DNA of 64,000 nucleotides, taken from NCBI RefSeq assembly GCF_004786035.1, contig NZ_CP035088.1:2826001-2890000 (forward strand), in the 5' to 3' direction. Every line of letters starts with the position of its first letter. Positions within the stretch are counted from its first letter, which is position 1. The notes beneath the pieces were generated by a model. The model ran no database searches, was not told where the DNA came from, and saw only the letters and a list, made by a program, of their open reading frames with translations. Made by a program: the position numbers and the translations under genes. Shown one piece after another: positions 15,884 to 49,266 of the stretch. The stretch is from Pseudomonas viciae (GTDB lineage Bacteria; Pseudomonadota; Gammaproteobacteria; Pseudomonadales; Pseudomonadaceae).

Positions 15884-15926
15884 TTGATCGCCATCAAGCG
15901 GTTTCAGACCCCTCGCTTCCTAGAAT
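15884..15926 (+). promoter_or_regulatory. Anr/Dnr-dependent norCB promoter
   Basis: TTGATCGCCATCAA at 15884-15897 is a perfect FNR-type box. TAGAAT at 15921-15926 is a good -10, 30.5 bp from the box centre, which predicts a start near 15933 and a leader of about 22 bases to the norC ATG. No usual -35 is needed with this geometry. Confidence 0.9.
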
Positions 15927-44197: not shown

Positions 44198-45169
44198 ATG
44201 ACGAGTGGATGCGGATGTGGCGGTAGTGGTGGCGGCAGCGGCGGCTGCGGTTCTTCGGCAAAAGCGGCACCGGTGAGCGCGCCGGTTGCCGATGTCGAAT
44301 CGACAGGAGCGGTGCAGTTCGAACCGGCCCAGGCCGAGCCGGCGGCGGGTGATGAAGCCCCGGCGCAATTGATCGCCAGCAGTGAGCAGGAGTGGCCGAT
44401 CATCAGCGTCAACGGGGTGTCGATCACCCCGCAGGCGATGGCTCAGGAGCTGCAATATCACCCGGCCGAGAGCCGCGAGGATGCGGTCTACCAGGCCGCC
44501 CGGGCCCTGGTGATACGCGAACTGCTTCAGCAGCGCATCGCCGAGTTGGGTCTGGCACTGCAGGTCGGCGCCGGTGAAAACGAAGAGGAAGCGGCCACGC
44601 GGCTGCTCCTTGAGCGTGAGGTGCAGGTGCCGAACTGTGACGAGGCCACTTGCCTGCGTTACTACGAGAGCAATCGGGCGCGCTTTCACAGCGCACCGTT
44701 GCTGGCGGTGCGGCACATTCTGCTCGAATGTGCGCCGGATGATACCGAGGCCCGCGATCAGGCCCATGTCCAGGCCGAGTTGCTGCTGGAACGGCTTGAC
44801 CAGTTCCCGGGCAGCTTCGCCGAACTGGCGCTGATGCATTCGGCTTGCCCGTCCAAGGAGCAGGGCGGCTCGCTGGGACAGATCAGCAAGGGGCAGACCG
44901 TGCCCGAGCTGGAACGCCAGTTGTTCACCCTGCCGGCGGGCCTGGCCAGCAAACCGCTGGAAAGTCGTTACGGCTGGCACGTGATCAGCATCGACCAGCG
45001 CATCGAAGGCCAGCCGTTGCCTTACGAGGTGGTGGCGACGGCGATTCGCACCCAGTTGCAGCAGGGCGTGTGGCAAAAAGCGCTGGTGCAGTACCTGCAA
45101 ACCCTGATCGGTGCGGCGGACATCCGTGGCATTCATCTTCAGGGCGCCGACTCGCCGCTGGTGCAGTGA
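44198..45169 (+). CDS. PpiC/NifM-type parvulin peptidyl-prolyl isomerase in the nar operon
   Basis: The 323-residue protein has an N-terminal Gly/Cys-rich stretch ([17 protein letters not shown]), a SurA/NifM-like helical region and a parvulin domain ([44 protein letters not shown]). No signal peptide is seen, so it is probably cytoplasmic and helps nitrate reductase folding; that role is inference from its place after narI (10-base gap) and before moaA. Confidence 0.88.
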
Positions 45170-46265: not shown

Positions 46266-46307
46266 TTGATATCGATCAATTGCAACCCGTGCCTTTGTCC
46301 GTACCAT
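46266..46307 (+). promoter_or_regulatory. Anr/Dnr-dependent promoter of nrdDG
   Basis: TTGATATCGATCAA at 46266-46279 is a perfect FNR-type palindrome. TACCAT at 46302-46307 gives a -10 29.5 bp from its centre, predicting a start near 46314 and a leader of about 52 bases. Confidence 0.9.
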
Positions 46308-46365: not shown

Positions 46366-48381
46366 ATGCAGAGCACGTTGATCTCAGTAGGCTGTAACCG
46401 TTTGCACAAGCGCGATGGCAGTGTGGTCGCCTTTGATGCGGACAAGATCCGCCAGGCGCTGATCGCTGCCGGCAAGGCCACCGGCGAGTACGCCGAAGTC
46501 GAGGCCGAAGGGTTGCTGGAGGCGGTGTTGGCGCGGTTGGAAGGGCAAACGCGGTTGAACGTCGAGCAGATCCAGGACCGCGTCGAACGGGTGCTGATGG
46601 ATGCGGGTTTCTTCCTCTCCATGCGTGCCTATATCGTCTACCGCGAGCAACATGGTCGCTTGCGCCGGGACCGCCGCACCCTGGTGGAAGTCGCCACCTC
46701 GATGAACGAATACCTGGACCGTGAAGACTGGCGCGTGCAAGCCAACGCCAACCAGGGCTATTCCCTTGGCGGGCTGATCCTCAACGTATCGGGCAAGGTC
46801 ACCGCCAACTACTGGCTCGACGAGGTCTACAGCCAGGCCATCGGCCAGGCCCACCGCGAGGCCGATCTGCATATCCACGACCTGGACATGCTCGCCGGTT
46901 ACTGTGCCGGTTGGTCCTTGCGCACGTTGTTGCATGAAGGCCTCAACGGCGTGCCAGGTCGGGTCGAGGCCGGGCCACCCAAGCACCTGAGCAGCGCCTT
47001 GGGACAGATGGTGAATTTCCTCGGCACCCTGCAAAACGAATGGGCCGGGGCCCAGGCATTCAGCTCGTTCGACACTTACCTGGCGCCCTACGTGCGCAAG
47101 GACCAACTCAGCTACGACGAGGTTCGCCAGTCGTTGCAGGAGTTCATCTACAACCTCAACGTGCCGTCACGCTGGGGCACGCAAACGCCGTTTACCAACC
47201 TCACGTTCGACTGGGTCTGCCCGCAGGATCTGCGCGAACAGATCCCGGTGATCGGCGGCGAAGAGATGCCATTCGCCTATGGCGACCTGCAAGTGGAAAT
47301 GGAGCTGATCAACCGTGCCTACATCGAAGTGATGCAGGCTGGCGATGCGAAAGGGCGGGTGTTCACGTTCCCGATCCCGACCTACAACATTACCCATGAC
47401 TTCCCGTGGGACAGTGAGAACGCCGATCGGCTGTTCGAAATGACCGCTCGCTACGGCTTGCCGTATTTCCAGAACTTCCTCAACTCGGACATGCAACCCA
47501 ACCAGGTGCGCTCAATGTGCTGCCGCCTGCAACTGGACGTGCGTGAGTTGCTCAAGCGCGGTGGTGGCCTGTTCGGCTCAGCGGAACAGACCGGCTCCCT
47601 GGGGGTGGTGACGATCAACTGCGCACGCCTGGGCTATCTGTACAAAGGGAATACCAGCGCATTGCTGCAACGCATCGATGCGCTGATGGAGCTGGCGAAG
47701 GAGAGCCTGGAGGTCAAGCGCAAGGTCATCCAGCACCACATGGATGCCGGTTTGTACCCCTACACCAAGCGCTACCTGGGCACCTTGCGCAATCACTTCT
47801 CCACCATCGGCGTGAACGGCTTGCATGAAATGCTGCGCAACTTCACCGACGACCAGCAAGGCCTGCACACCGAGCAGGGTCGGGCGTTCGCGCTGAAACT
47901 GCTGGATCACGTGCGGGCCACGCTGCTGCGTTTCCAGGAAGAAACCGGCCACCTCTACAACCTGGAAGCCACGCCCGCCGAAGGCACCACCTACCGCTTC
48001 GCCAAGGAAGACCTCAAGCGCTACCCCGACATCTTGCAGGCCGGCAGCCCGGTCGCCCCGTACTACACCAACTCGTCGCAACTGCCGGTGGGCTTCACCG
48101 ACGATCCGTTCGAAGCCCTGGAGCTGCAAGACGAACTGCAATGCAAGTACACCGGCGGCACCGTGCTGCATCTGTACATGGCCGAGCAGATTTCCTCCAC
48201 TCAGGCCTGCAAGCAACTGGTGCGCAAGGCCCTGGGACGTTTCCGCCTGCCGTACCTGACCATCACGCCGACCTTTTCCATCTGCCCGGTGCACGGTTAC
48301 CTGGCCGGCGAACACGAGTTCTGCCCCAAATGCGACGAAGCCTTGCTGCTGCAACAGCAGTTGGCAGGCAGCGTTCACTGA
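46366..48381 (+). CDS. nrdD: NrdD, anaerobic ribonucleoside-triphosphate reductase main subunit (lacks glycyl-radical tail)
   Basis: The 671-residue protein has an N-terminal ATP-cone (HKRDGSVVAFDADKIRQAL) and the class III reductase barrel with MVNFLGTLQNEWAGAQAF. It ends in the zinc-site region (FSICPVHGYLAGEHEFCPKC) but stops before the glycyl-radical RVxGY motif. That motif is encoded by the next small gene. E. coli NrdD has 712 residues, close to the sum of the two pieces (724). Confidence 0.93.
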   Translation: MQSTLISVGCNRLHKRDGSVVAFDADKIRQALIAAGKATGEYAEVEAEGLLEAVLARLEGQTRLNVEQIQDRVERVLMDAGFFLSMRAYIVYREQHGRLRRDRRTLVEVATSMNEYLDREDWRVQANANQGYSLGGLILNVSGKVTANYWLDEVYSQAIGQAHREADLHIHDLDMLAGYCAGWSLRTLLHEGLNGVPGRVEAGPPKHLSSALGQMVNFLGTLQNEWAGAQAFSSFDTYLAPYVRKDQLSYDEVRQSLQEFIYNLNVPSRWGTQTPFTNLTFDWVCPQDLREQIPVIGGEEMPFAYGDLQVEMELINRAYIEVMQAGDAKGRVFTFPIPTYNITHDFPWDSENADRLFEMTARYGLPYFQNFLNSDMQPNQVRSMCCRLQLDVRELLKRGGGLFGSAEQTGSLGVVTINCARLGYLYKGNTSALLQRIDALMELAKESLEVKRKVIQHHMDAGLYPYTKRYLGTLRNHFSTIGVNGLHEMLRNFTDDQQGLHTEQGRAFALKLLDHVRATLLRFQEETGHLYNLEATPAEGTTYRFAKEDLKRYPDILQAGSPVAPYYTNSSQLPVGFTDDPFEALELQDELQCKYTGGTVLHLYMAEQISSTQACKQLVRKALGRFRLPYLTITPTFSICPVHGYLAGEHEFCPKCDEALLLQQQLAGSVH

Positions 48382-48412
48382 TCCGATCCATCGACCGCAA
48401 GGAGCTTCTCCC

Positions 48413-48574
48413 ATGAACGCATCACAATCTCTTCCGCAGGCACAGCGTCAACGTTGCGAAGTCTGGACCCGCGTGATGGGTTACCACCGCCCGGTGGCGG
48501 CCTTCAACCCGGGCAAGCAGTCCGAGCATCGCGAACGGCTGCACTTCACTGAAAGCGCGGCCGGGCGTCCATGA
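48413..48574 (+). CDS. Separate 53-residue glycyl-radical segment of NrdD
   Basis: This small gene encodes MNASQSLPQAQRQRCEVWTR followed by VMGYHRPVAAFNPGKQSEHR and a short tail. CEVWTRVMGYHRPVAAFNPGK matches the C-terminal glycyl-radical region of NrdD proteins, with G23 as the radical glycine. It is 31 bases after nrdD, in another frame, with its own AAGGAG site, and its stop overlaps the nrdG start (ATGA). It is therefore translated as a separate polypeptide rather than fused. Confidence 0.85.
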   Translation: MNASQSLPQAQRQRCEVWTRVMGYHRPVAAFNPGKQSEHRERLHFTESAAGRP

Positions 48575-49266
48575 GTCGAGTGCTACGGGTCGGGGGCATG
48601 GTGCCCCTGACCACCCTCGATTATCCGGGCCAACTGGCTTGCGTACTGTTTTGCCAGGGTTGCGCCTGGCGTTGTCGTTACTGCCATAACCCGCAATTGA
48701 TCCCGCCGCGCGGCAGCGAGGAGGTGGATTGGTGTCGGGTCTTGGCGTTCCTGCAACGCCGCCAGGACCTGCTCGATGCCGTGGTGTTCAGCGGCGGCGA
48801 GCCGACCTTGCAGGACGGCCTGGCCTCGGCCATGGAGGAGGTCCGGCAGATGGGGTTTCGCGTCGGCCTGCACAGCGCCGGAATCAAGCCGGCGGCCTTC
48901 GCCAAAGTGGTCGGTCTGGCCGACTGGGTGGGCTTCGACATCAAGGCGTTGCCCGAAGATGCCCTGGACGTGACCCGGGTCGAAGGCAGTGGTGCCGCCA
49001 ACTGGCGCAGCCTCGACCATCTGCTGGCCAGCGGCGTGGAGTATGAATGCCGTACCACCGTGCATTGGCACCTGTTCGACCCCGAACGGTTGTTGACCCT
49101 GGCCCGCCGTTTGAGCGAGCGCGGCGTCAGCCGGTTCGCCGTGCAATTGGTGCGCACTGCGCGGATGCTCGACCCCCATCTTTCCAGCGTCTCGGCACAA
49201 GCCTTGCAACCTGAGTTGTGGGCCGCCCTGCGCGAGTTGTTCCCCTCGTTCGTCTTACGCAGTTGA
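48571..49266 (+). CDS. nrdG: NrdG, radical SAM activating enzyme of class III ribonucleotide reductase
   Basis: The 231-residue protein carries CQGCAWRCRYCHNP with the radical SAM cysteines C31, C35 and C38, and GGEPTLQ. It generates the glycyl radical using S-adenosylmethionine, here presumably on the separate 53-residue peptide. Translation is coupled to that peptide by a four-base overlap. Confidence 0.93.
   Translation: MSRVLRVGGMVPLTTLDYPGQLACVLFCQGCAWRCRYCHNPQLIPPRGSEEVDWCRVLAFLQRRQDLLDAVVFSGGEPTLQDGLASAMEEVRQMGFRVGLHSAGIKPAAFAKVVGLADWVGFDIKALPEDALDVTRVEGSGAANWRSLDHLLASGVEYECRTTVHWHLFDPERLLTLARRLSERGVSRFAVQLVRTARMLDPHLSSVSAQALQPELWAALRELFPSFVLRS

Follow-up and report, generated by a model that had tools for sequence, protein, structure and literature searches.

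A separate gene for the glycyl-radical domain of NrdD in Pseudomonas viciae points to a two-chain class III ribonucleotide reductase

The glycyl-radical domain of NrdD is encoded by its own small gene

The stretch of 64,000 nucleotides analyzed here (hereafter the window; Pseudomonas viciae, assembly GCF_004786035.1, contig NZ_CP035088.1, positions 2,826,001 to 2,890,000 of the forward strand) contains a locus for a class III ribonucleotide reductase in which the glycyl-radical domain (GRD) is not part of the large chain NrdD, but is encoded by a separate open reading frame (ORF) of 53 codons located between nrdD and nrdG. It is very probable that the gene products constitute a two-chain class III ribonucleotide reductase, the small radical subunit of which would be activated by NrdG and dock in trans. 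The following features of the locus are given in window coordinates.

46366..48381, + strand: nrdD, large chain, 671 aa, TGA stop; contains ATP-cone, barrel, finger loop, Cys180 and zinc-ribbon motif
NrdD residues 15-97: ATP-cone PF03477
48283..48333, + strand: zinc-ribbon motif CPVHGYLAGEHEFCPKC, residues 640-656, with predicted ligands C640, H643, C653 and C656
48399..48404, + strand: AAGGAG ribosome-binding site of the GRD gene, 8 nt before its ATG
48413..48574, + strand: GRD gene, 53 aa, a 14-residue leader followed by the GRD from Cys15; assigned by PF13597 match, conservation and selection
48479..48481, + strand: codon GGT of Gly23, predicted radical glycine (RVMGY), from alignment to Gly621 of Thermotoga maritima
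48571..49266, + strand: nrdG, radical-SAM activase of type NrdG2, 231 aa; TIGR02495 217.7 bits (cut-off 131.15)

The large chain, the frame of which begins at an earlier ATG (46315) in a mechanical list of ORFs, matches positions 2-528 of the PF13597 profile with 582 bits, corresponding to the NRDD barrel, and lacks the glycyl-radical segment. As had been stated in the initial annotation, its frame ends after the zinc site: the ligands are spaced C640-x2-H643-x9-C653-x2-C656 and the chain stops 15 residues later. These four residues, for which metal binding is predicted, are invariant across the 47 sequences of an alignment (A3), and so are Cys180 and the finger loop MCCR (residues 384-387), for which active-site roles are described in PMC9669993. 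The zinc motif given for T. maritima NrdD is CxxxHx6CxxC (PMC4493059). Since all four ligands lie within the large chain, the break falls between the zinc ribbon and the radical loop. The best family for the large chain is NF006126 (PRK08270, ribonucleoside triphosphate reductase; 1136 bits), and on this model of 684 positions the large chain covers 4-653 and the small ORF 648-682. Thus, the barrel, the active-site cysteines and the four-ligand zinc motif of a class III enzyme, as represented by PF13597, TIGR02487 and NF006126, are all present in the large chain, and nrdG encodes the cognate activase according to TIGR02495, but the radical glycine motif is found in the ORF 48413-48574 instead of the same chain, and for this reason the locus is classed as a two-chain variant of class III reductase.

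The small ORF matches positions 531-562 of PF13597 with 33.9 bits (cut-off 26.2). Upstream, its frame (+1 relative to nrdD) extends no further than a TGA at 48257, the first start codon within it is the ATG at 48413, 31 nt past the nrdD stop, and its own stop overlaps the start of nrdG in an ATGA (48571-48574), so that every signal claimed at the outset for a separate gene (own start, AAGGAG, different frame and ATGA coupling to nrdG) is present. In an alignment, the glycine of the VMGY motif in a fused homologue (L152) corresponds to Gly621 of T. maritima NrdD, the radical site of that enzyme (PMC4493059), and the glycine of the small ORF is therefore homologous to a known radical glycine. 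Cys15 (48455-48457), just before EVW, is a cysteine in 146/146 split rows and in 76/79 phage rows. An interchain zinc site involving Cys15 was considered but is not favoured, since the large chain by itself provides four invariant ligands. A genome-wide profile search detected no NRDD match besides nrdD and the small ORF. The annotation by NCBI already calls both ORFs and names the small one nrdD, anaerobic ribonucleoside-triphosphate reductase, a name that can mislead, as it reads as if the whole enzyme were meant.

The split is conserved in Pseudomonas, and the GRD is under purifying selection

A set of 398 Pseudomonas genomes was searched, and for the 95 with an NRDD match the arrangement was called by analysis of the locus. 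The gene was split in 93 of these, fused in one (G285) and cut by a contig end in one (G330). The 93 split genomes account for 95 split loci, as G169 possesses three copies. No GRD was found in the 303 nrdD-negative genomes (PF13597, E ≤ 0.001), so that GRD and nrdD co-occur within the genus. Because the split is conserved in 93/95 nrdD-positive genomes, a chance event is excluded.

Each of the 95 split loci has a GRD gene with its own ATG and a match of at least 5 nt to a ribosome site 7-10 nt upstream, and in 84 of them the start of nrdG overlaps the GRD gene by 4 nt. The frame of the GRD relative to nrdD is +1 in 39 loci, +2 in 39 and 0 in 17, and the gap between the nrdD stop and the GRD ATG ranges from -26 to 633 nt, mostly 31-32 nt; in one locus (L057, genome G005), a stop codon lies between the two pieces. 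The start codon and the ribosome site remain constant while frame and spacing drift, which is the pattern of a separate gene and not that of recoding or decay. For 74 distinct sequences that have a 14-residue leader, the ratio of nonsynonymous to synonymous polymorphism (pN/pS) averages 0.067 in the GRD and 0.32 in the leader, and variable sites are distributed over the three codon positions as 15, 12, and 43. The GRD is under strong purifying selection. The view of the initial annotation that the locus encodes a functional two-chain enzyme rather than a broken gene is supported by these frequencies (93/95 genomes, 95/95 loci) and by the low pN/pS.

Distribution beyond Pseudomonas and evolution of the split

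Genomes were also sampled at the level of order, class and phylum; split rows were confirmed in the DNA (in G488 only under genetic code 25) and fused rows that were not fetched were classed from tables. At the order level, 57/390 genomes were positive, with 32 split (the source genome included) and 25 fused. At the class level, 38/369 were positive, with 28 split (4 already counted), 7 fused and 3 too fragmentary or weak, and at the phylum level 57/398, with 13 split (7 already counted), 43 fused and one weak match. When named genomes were scanned, at least 584 loci were obtained, and the best 80 of these comprised 78 split and 2 fused genes, the latter in metagenome-assembled genomes (MAGs) of Maricaulis and Parvularculaceae; because the query was a split-type GRD, this set is biased towards split loci. 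Split members occur in Pseudomonas, Stutzerimonas, Halomonas, Marinobacter, Acidovorax, Thiobacillus, and Methylophaga, and also on plasmids of Cupriavidus, Bradyrhizobium, Paracoccus, and Sulfuricurvum. Matches in Omnitrophota, Chloroflexota, and Geobacteraceae come from MAGs, for which mis-binning is possible. A length-limited protein search gave at least 7998 small relatives, some of which may be fragments. Besides being present throughout the genus, the split occurs in many families and in some other phyla.

Two kinds of unusual nrdD genes were encountered among these loci. In L217 (G488:C163:14000-19000), nrdD contains in-frame TGA codons, at conserved glycines where compared by eye, and in its GRD gene the codon of the radical glycine itself is TGA; this is readable with code 25 as used in SR1/Gracilibacteria, and the contig is perhaps foreign to the assembly. 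In L220, L298, and L303, an insert, possibly an intein, breaks nrdD at about residue 272, and in L220 it is in frame and yields an open frame of 1021 residues.

A quick tree was built from 82 large chains; it separates four outgroup fused rows from a single group made up of 70 split and 8 fused rows. Well-supported branches force at least three changes between the split and the fused state in this tree, the deep supports of which are low and four long end branches of which were flagged. The split may plausibly have arisen only once. The four outgroup fusions have 4 residues between the last zinc cysteine and the glutamate of EVW/EVY. The fused genes L003, L282, and L287 have linkers of 6, 18, and 18 residues that end in TRC or RQPC, like the stand-alone genes, as would be expected if the genes had been re-fused. 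L003, the Pseudomonas fusion of G285, is nested among split close kin of the P. viciae locus with a support of 99 in the Shimodaira-Hasegawa-like approximate likelihood ratio test (SH-aLRT). Its position within the split clade together with the Arg-Cys retained before EVW indicates that it is apparently a later fusion. The initial annotation had named an uninterrupted homologue at this locus as an argument against a genuine split; formally, the gene of G285, and this gene alone, is such a homologue, but it looks like a fusion that followed the split. L152 and L215, which are fused with a short linker and lie inside the main group, may be ancestral or independent fusions.

A model for a two-chain enzyme and its relation to known systems

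In the proposed enzyme, NrdD would supply the ATP-cone, the catalytic barrel and the zinc ribbon, and the 53-residue protein would serve as a free glycyl-radical subunit. NrdG, the gene of which is translationally coupled to the GRD gene, would install the radical on Gly23, the GRD loop would then enter the barrel and come to lie next to the finger-loop cysteines, where one-chain NrdD has its C-terminal loop, and turnover would take place. That NrdG acts on the small chain and that this chain docks in the barrel is proposed from the homology of the radical glycine and the retention of Cys180 and MCCR. Oxygen would presumably cleave the small chain only, and, in analogy to YfiD (PMC8683613), a fresh copy of this chain might then rescue the existing barrel.

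Two observations speak against the proposed two-chain enzyme. One is that G285 (L003) and several other members carry fused genes, so that separation is not obligatory. The other comes from AlphaFold models of the natural Pseudomonas fusion L003 and of a read-through chain (L008, with the in-frame TGA read as Trp), both of which place the barrel well but give the GRD a block-mean predicted local distance difference test (pLDDT) score of about 34-53, leaving docking unsupported. Few rows in the alignments used by AlphaFold covered the GRD, and VIA-align matched mainly the barrel and the ribbon of the L003 model.

The radical domain of class III enzymes is placed at the C-terminus of the same chain in PMC9669993, PMC9531940, and PMC4009431. 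Like the one-chain NrdD proteins of E. coli, T4, and T. maritima, the P. viciae system possesses an ATP-cone (present in many of them), barrel, finger-loop cysteine(s), zinc ribbon, a loop of the RVxGY type and NrdG, and it differs from them in that the radical loop is a separate gene product. Reductase chains encoded by two genes are also described for class II (NrdJa/NrdJb of Pseudomonas aeruginosa) and class I (phage Aeh1) (PMC3267527, PMC4009431), although these belong to other reductase classes, the split point of NrdJa/NrdJb also differs and the likeness is by analogy only. Split class I and II enzymes are described in the accessible parts of the reviews PMC4009431 and PMC3267527, and a split class III enzyme is not mentioned there; none was found in the parts of the open-licence literature consulted, and an older mention, for instance in subscription papers, is possible. 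A naturally separate radical subunit would allow radical generation, docking and catalysis to be dissected and mixed in vitro, and with a split NrdD it could be tested directly whether other glycyl-radical enzymes have spare parts too, as has been proposed (PMC8683613).

There is also a likeness to YfiD/GrcA and T4 Y06I, autonomous glycyl-radical cofactors of pyruvate formate-lyase, in which a small free protein carries the radical glycine, as the P. viciae GRD is predicted to do, and is expected to act in trans. YfiD and Y06I replace the damaged domain of an enzyme that has a domain of its own, whereas the P. viciae large chain has none. The families are different too, namely PF13597 for the P. 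viciae GRD versus PF01228 for YfiD/GrcA and Y06I. In the P. viciae genome, no PF01228-type glycyl-radical protein was found, and the small ORF had no PF01228 match at E ≤ 1.

GRD genes apart from nrdD

GRD genes are independent of nrdD not only in frame but also in neighbourhood. In G1409 (L205), nrdD and the GRD-nrdG pair are 8.4 kb apart, separated by ORFs of the opposite strand, and G1041 has a second GRD (L208:5827-5970), near a reductase large subunit (phrog_84), in addition to the usual nrdD-GRD-nrdG operon. Orphan GRDs are found on Allochromatium plasmids (L306:4001-4138 on pALVIN01 of A. vinosum; L316:2481-2612 on pAt1 of A. tepidum), and no other NRDD match was detected on pALVIN01 or pAt1. 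A further orphan GRD (L206:7664-7792, G600) lies in a prophage-like region with a tape-measure gene nearby; a Cys-rich, leader-like stretch is located just upstream in a different frame, and the sole other NRDD match of G600 is of the fused, E. coli-like kind.

A pattern search of IMG/VR gave 286 matches, of which 251 encode a GRD relative, and the best 80 were fetched (L321-L400). As a match required an RVMGY[HY]RP or [FW]NxGK segment, conservation in these segments is partly selected. Two examples on IMG/VR contigs are the following.

L326:8001-8135: phage GRD
L385:8001-8123: phage GRD

The flanks of the 80 fetched loci revealed no NrdD barrel. In 30/30 whole phage records, chosen among the 80, mostly the longer ones and some of them perhaps fragments, PF13597 matched the GRD only and no barrel, and the NrdG2 model gave no match; in 29/30 the GRD scored above the PF13597 cut-off. 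Ten phage loci showed weak nrdG-like matches, which coincide with the position of the GRD itself and therefore were rejected as separate activase genes. Head, packaging, portal, connector or tail genes are neighbours in 11/16 partly scanned loci, and a Cys-rich N-terminal leader, recognized by pattern, precedes 10/79 phage GRDs. A search of phage genomes with a 44-residue phage GRD found nothing, and the P. viciae GRD as query yielded one gene of an archaeal virus, which is annotated as the reductase. The PHROG family phrog_4132, listed as of unknown function, matches the P. viciae GRD and 6/6 phage GRDs scanned, and the phage copies thus point to a hidden gene of anaerobic nucleotide metabolism.

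These free-standing genes could mean that the separate GRD serves mainly as an exchangeable repair part, allowing a YfiD-like swap of oxygen-cleaved chains, with mobile elements adding copies. The lone GRD in 30/30 phage records, the two Allochromatium plasmids, the extra copy in G1041 and the precedents YfiD and T4 Y06I (PMC8683613) agree with such a function, which we consider possible but somewhat short of an even chance. On the other hand, the virus records are possibly fragments, and in G600 the other NrdD is the fused E. coli-like one and the orphan GRD is out of frame with its leader-like stretch. In the wider form of this idea, which we put forward equally tentatively, the NrdD GRD would be a mobile, exchangeable radical cartridge, free as a subunit in a large branch of class III reductases, and the copies of phages and plasmids, some of them with a cysteine-rich leader, would recharge or take over the anaerobic deoxynucleotide (dNTP) synthesis of the host. 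If so, oxygen damage would cost the cell only about 50 residues, and spare-part systems, validated only for pyruvate formate-lyase (PMC8683613), would be extended to ribonucleotide reductase.

Recoding and decay

Returning to the two-chain enzyme, the separate ORFs could in principle be joined by programmed recoding (frameshift or stop readthrough), so that the working protein would be a single chain. The GRD is in the nrdD frame at 17/95 split Pseudomonas loci, and in nine genomes one search match spans both pieces with a single stop between them, but the GRD occupies the other two frames at 78/95 loci with gaps of -26 to 633 nt, the joining stops vary between TGA and TAA, an ATG and ribosome site precede the GRD at every split locus and in G1409 the GRD is 8.4 kb distant, all of which, although no search aimed at slippery sites was made, makes recoding highly improbable. 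That nrdD is decayed or inactive and the split a product of degeneration or sequencing error is just as improbable: P. aeruginosa also possesses class I and II reductases (PMC4860495), so that class III could be dispensable, and 303/398 Pseudomonas genomes have no NRDD match, but both pieces are intact and conserved, with a GRD pN/pS of 0.067, the arrangement is kept across many genera, an FNR-type box lies before nrdD and nar genes and moaA adjoin. Recoding, sequencing error and pseudogene were all rejected after comparison with relatives.

Promoter box and genomic neighbourhood

The predicted regulatory element in front of nrdD is the following.

46266..46279, no strand assigned: FNR/Anr/Dnr-type box TTGATATCGATCAA, centre about 94 bp upstream of the nrdD ATG, an exact match to TTGATNNNNATCAA

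The window contains 2 perfect FNR-type boxes, compared with a mean of 0.02 in shuffles; the second, TTGATCGCCATCAA, is located at 15884-15897. A Dnr box has been described in the nrdDG promoter of P. aeruginosa (PMC5645315). Neighbouring genes include moaA, narG, narH, narJ, and genes for a NarK-type transporter, NarL and a NarX/NarQ-like kinase (below the models' cut-offs), and as the nar genes and moaA adjoin it, the nrdD locus is placed among genes of nitrate respiration. Between the nar cluster and moaA, at 44198-45169, lies a gene for a NifM/peptidyl-prolyl isomerase (PPIase)-like protein with a Gly/Cys-rich N-terminus. Elsewhere in the P. viciae genome (G000:C1:5143524-5145317), a class II-like reductase match was detected, with an NrdJ_Z score of 386.7 bits, just under the cut-off.

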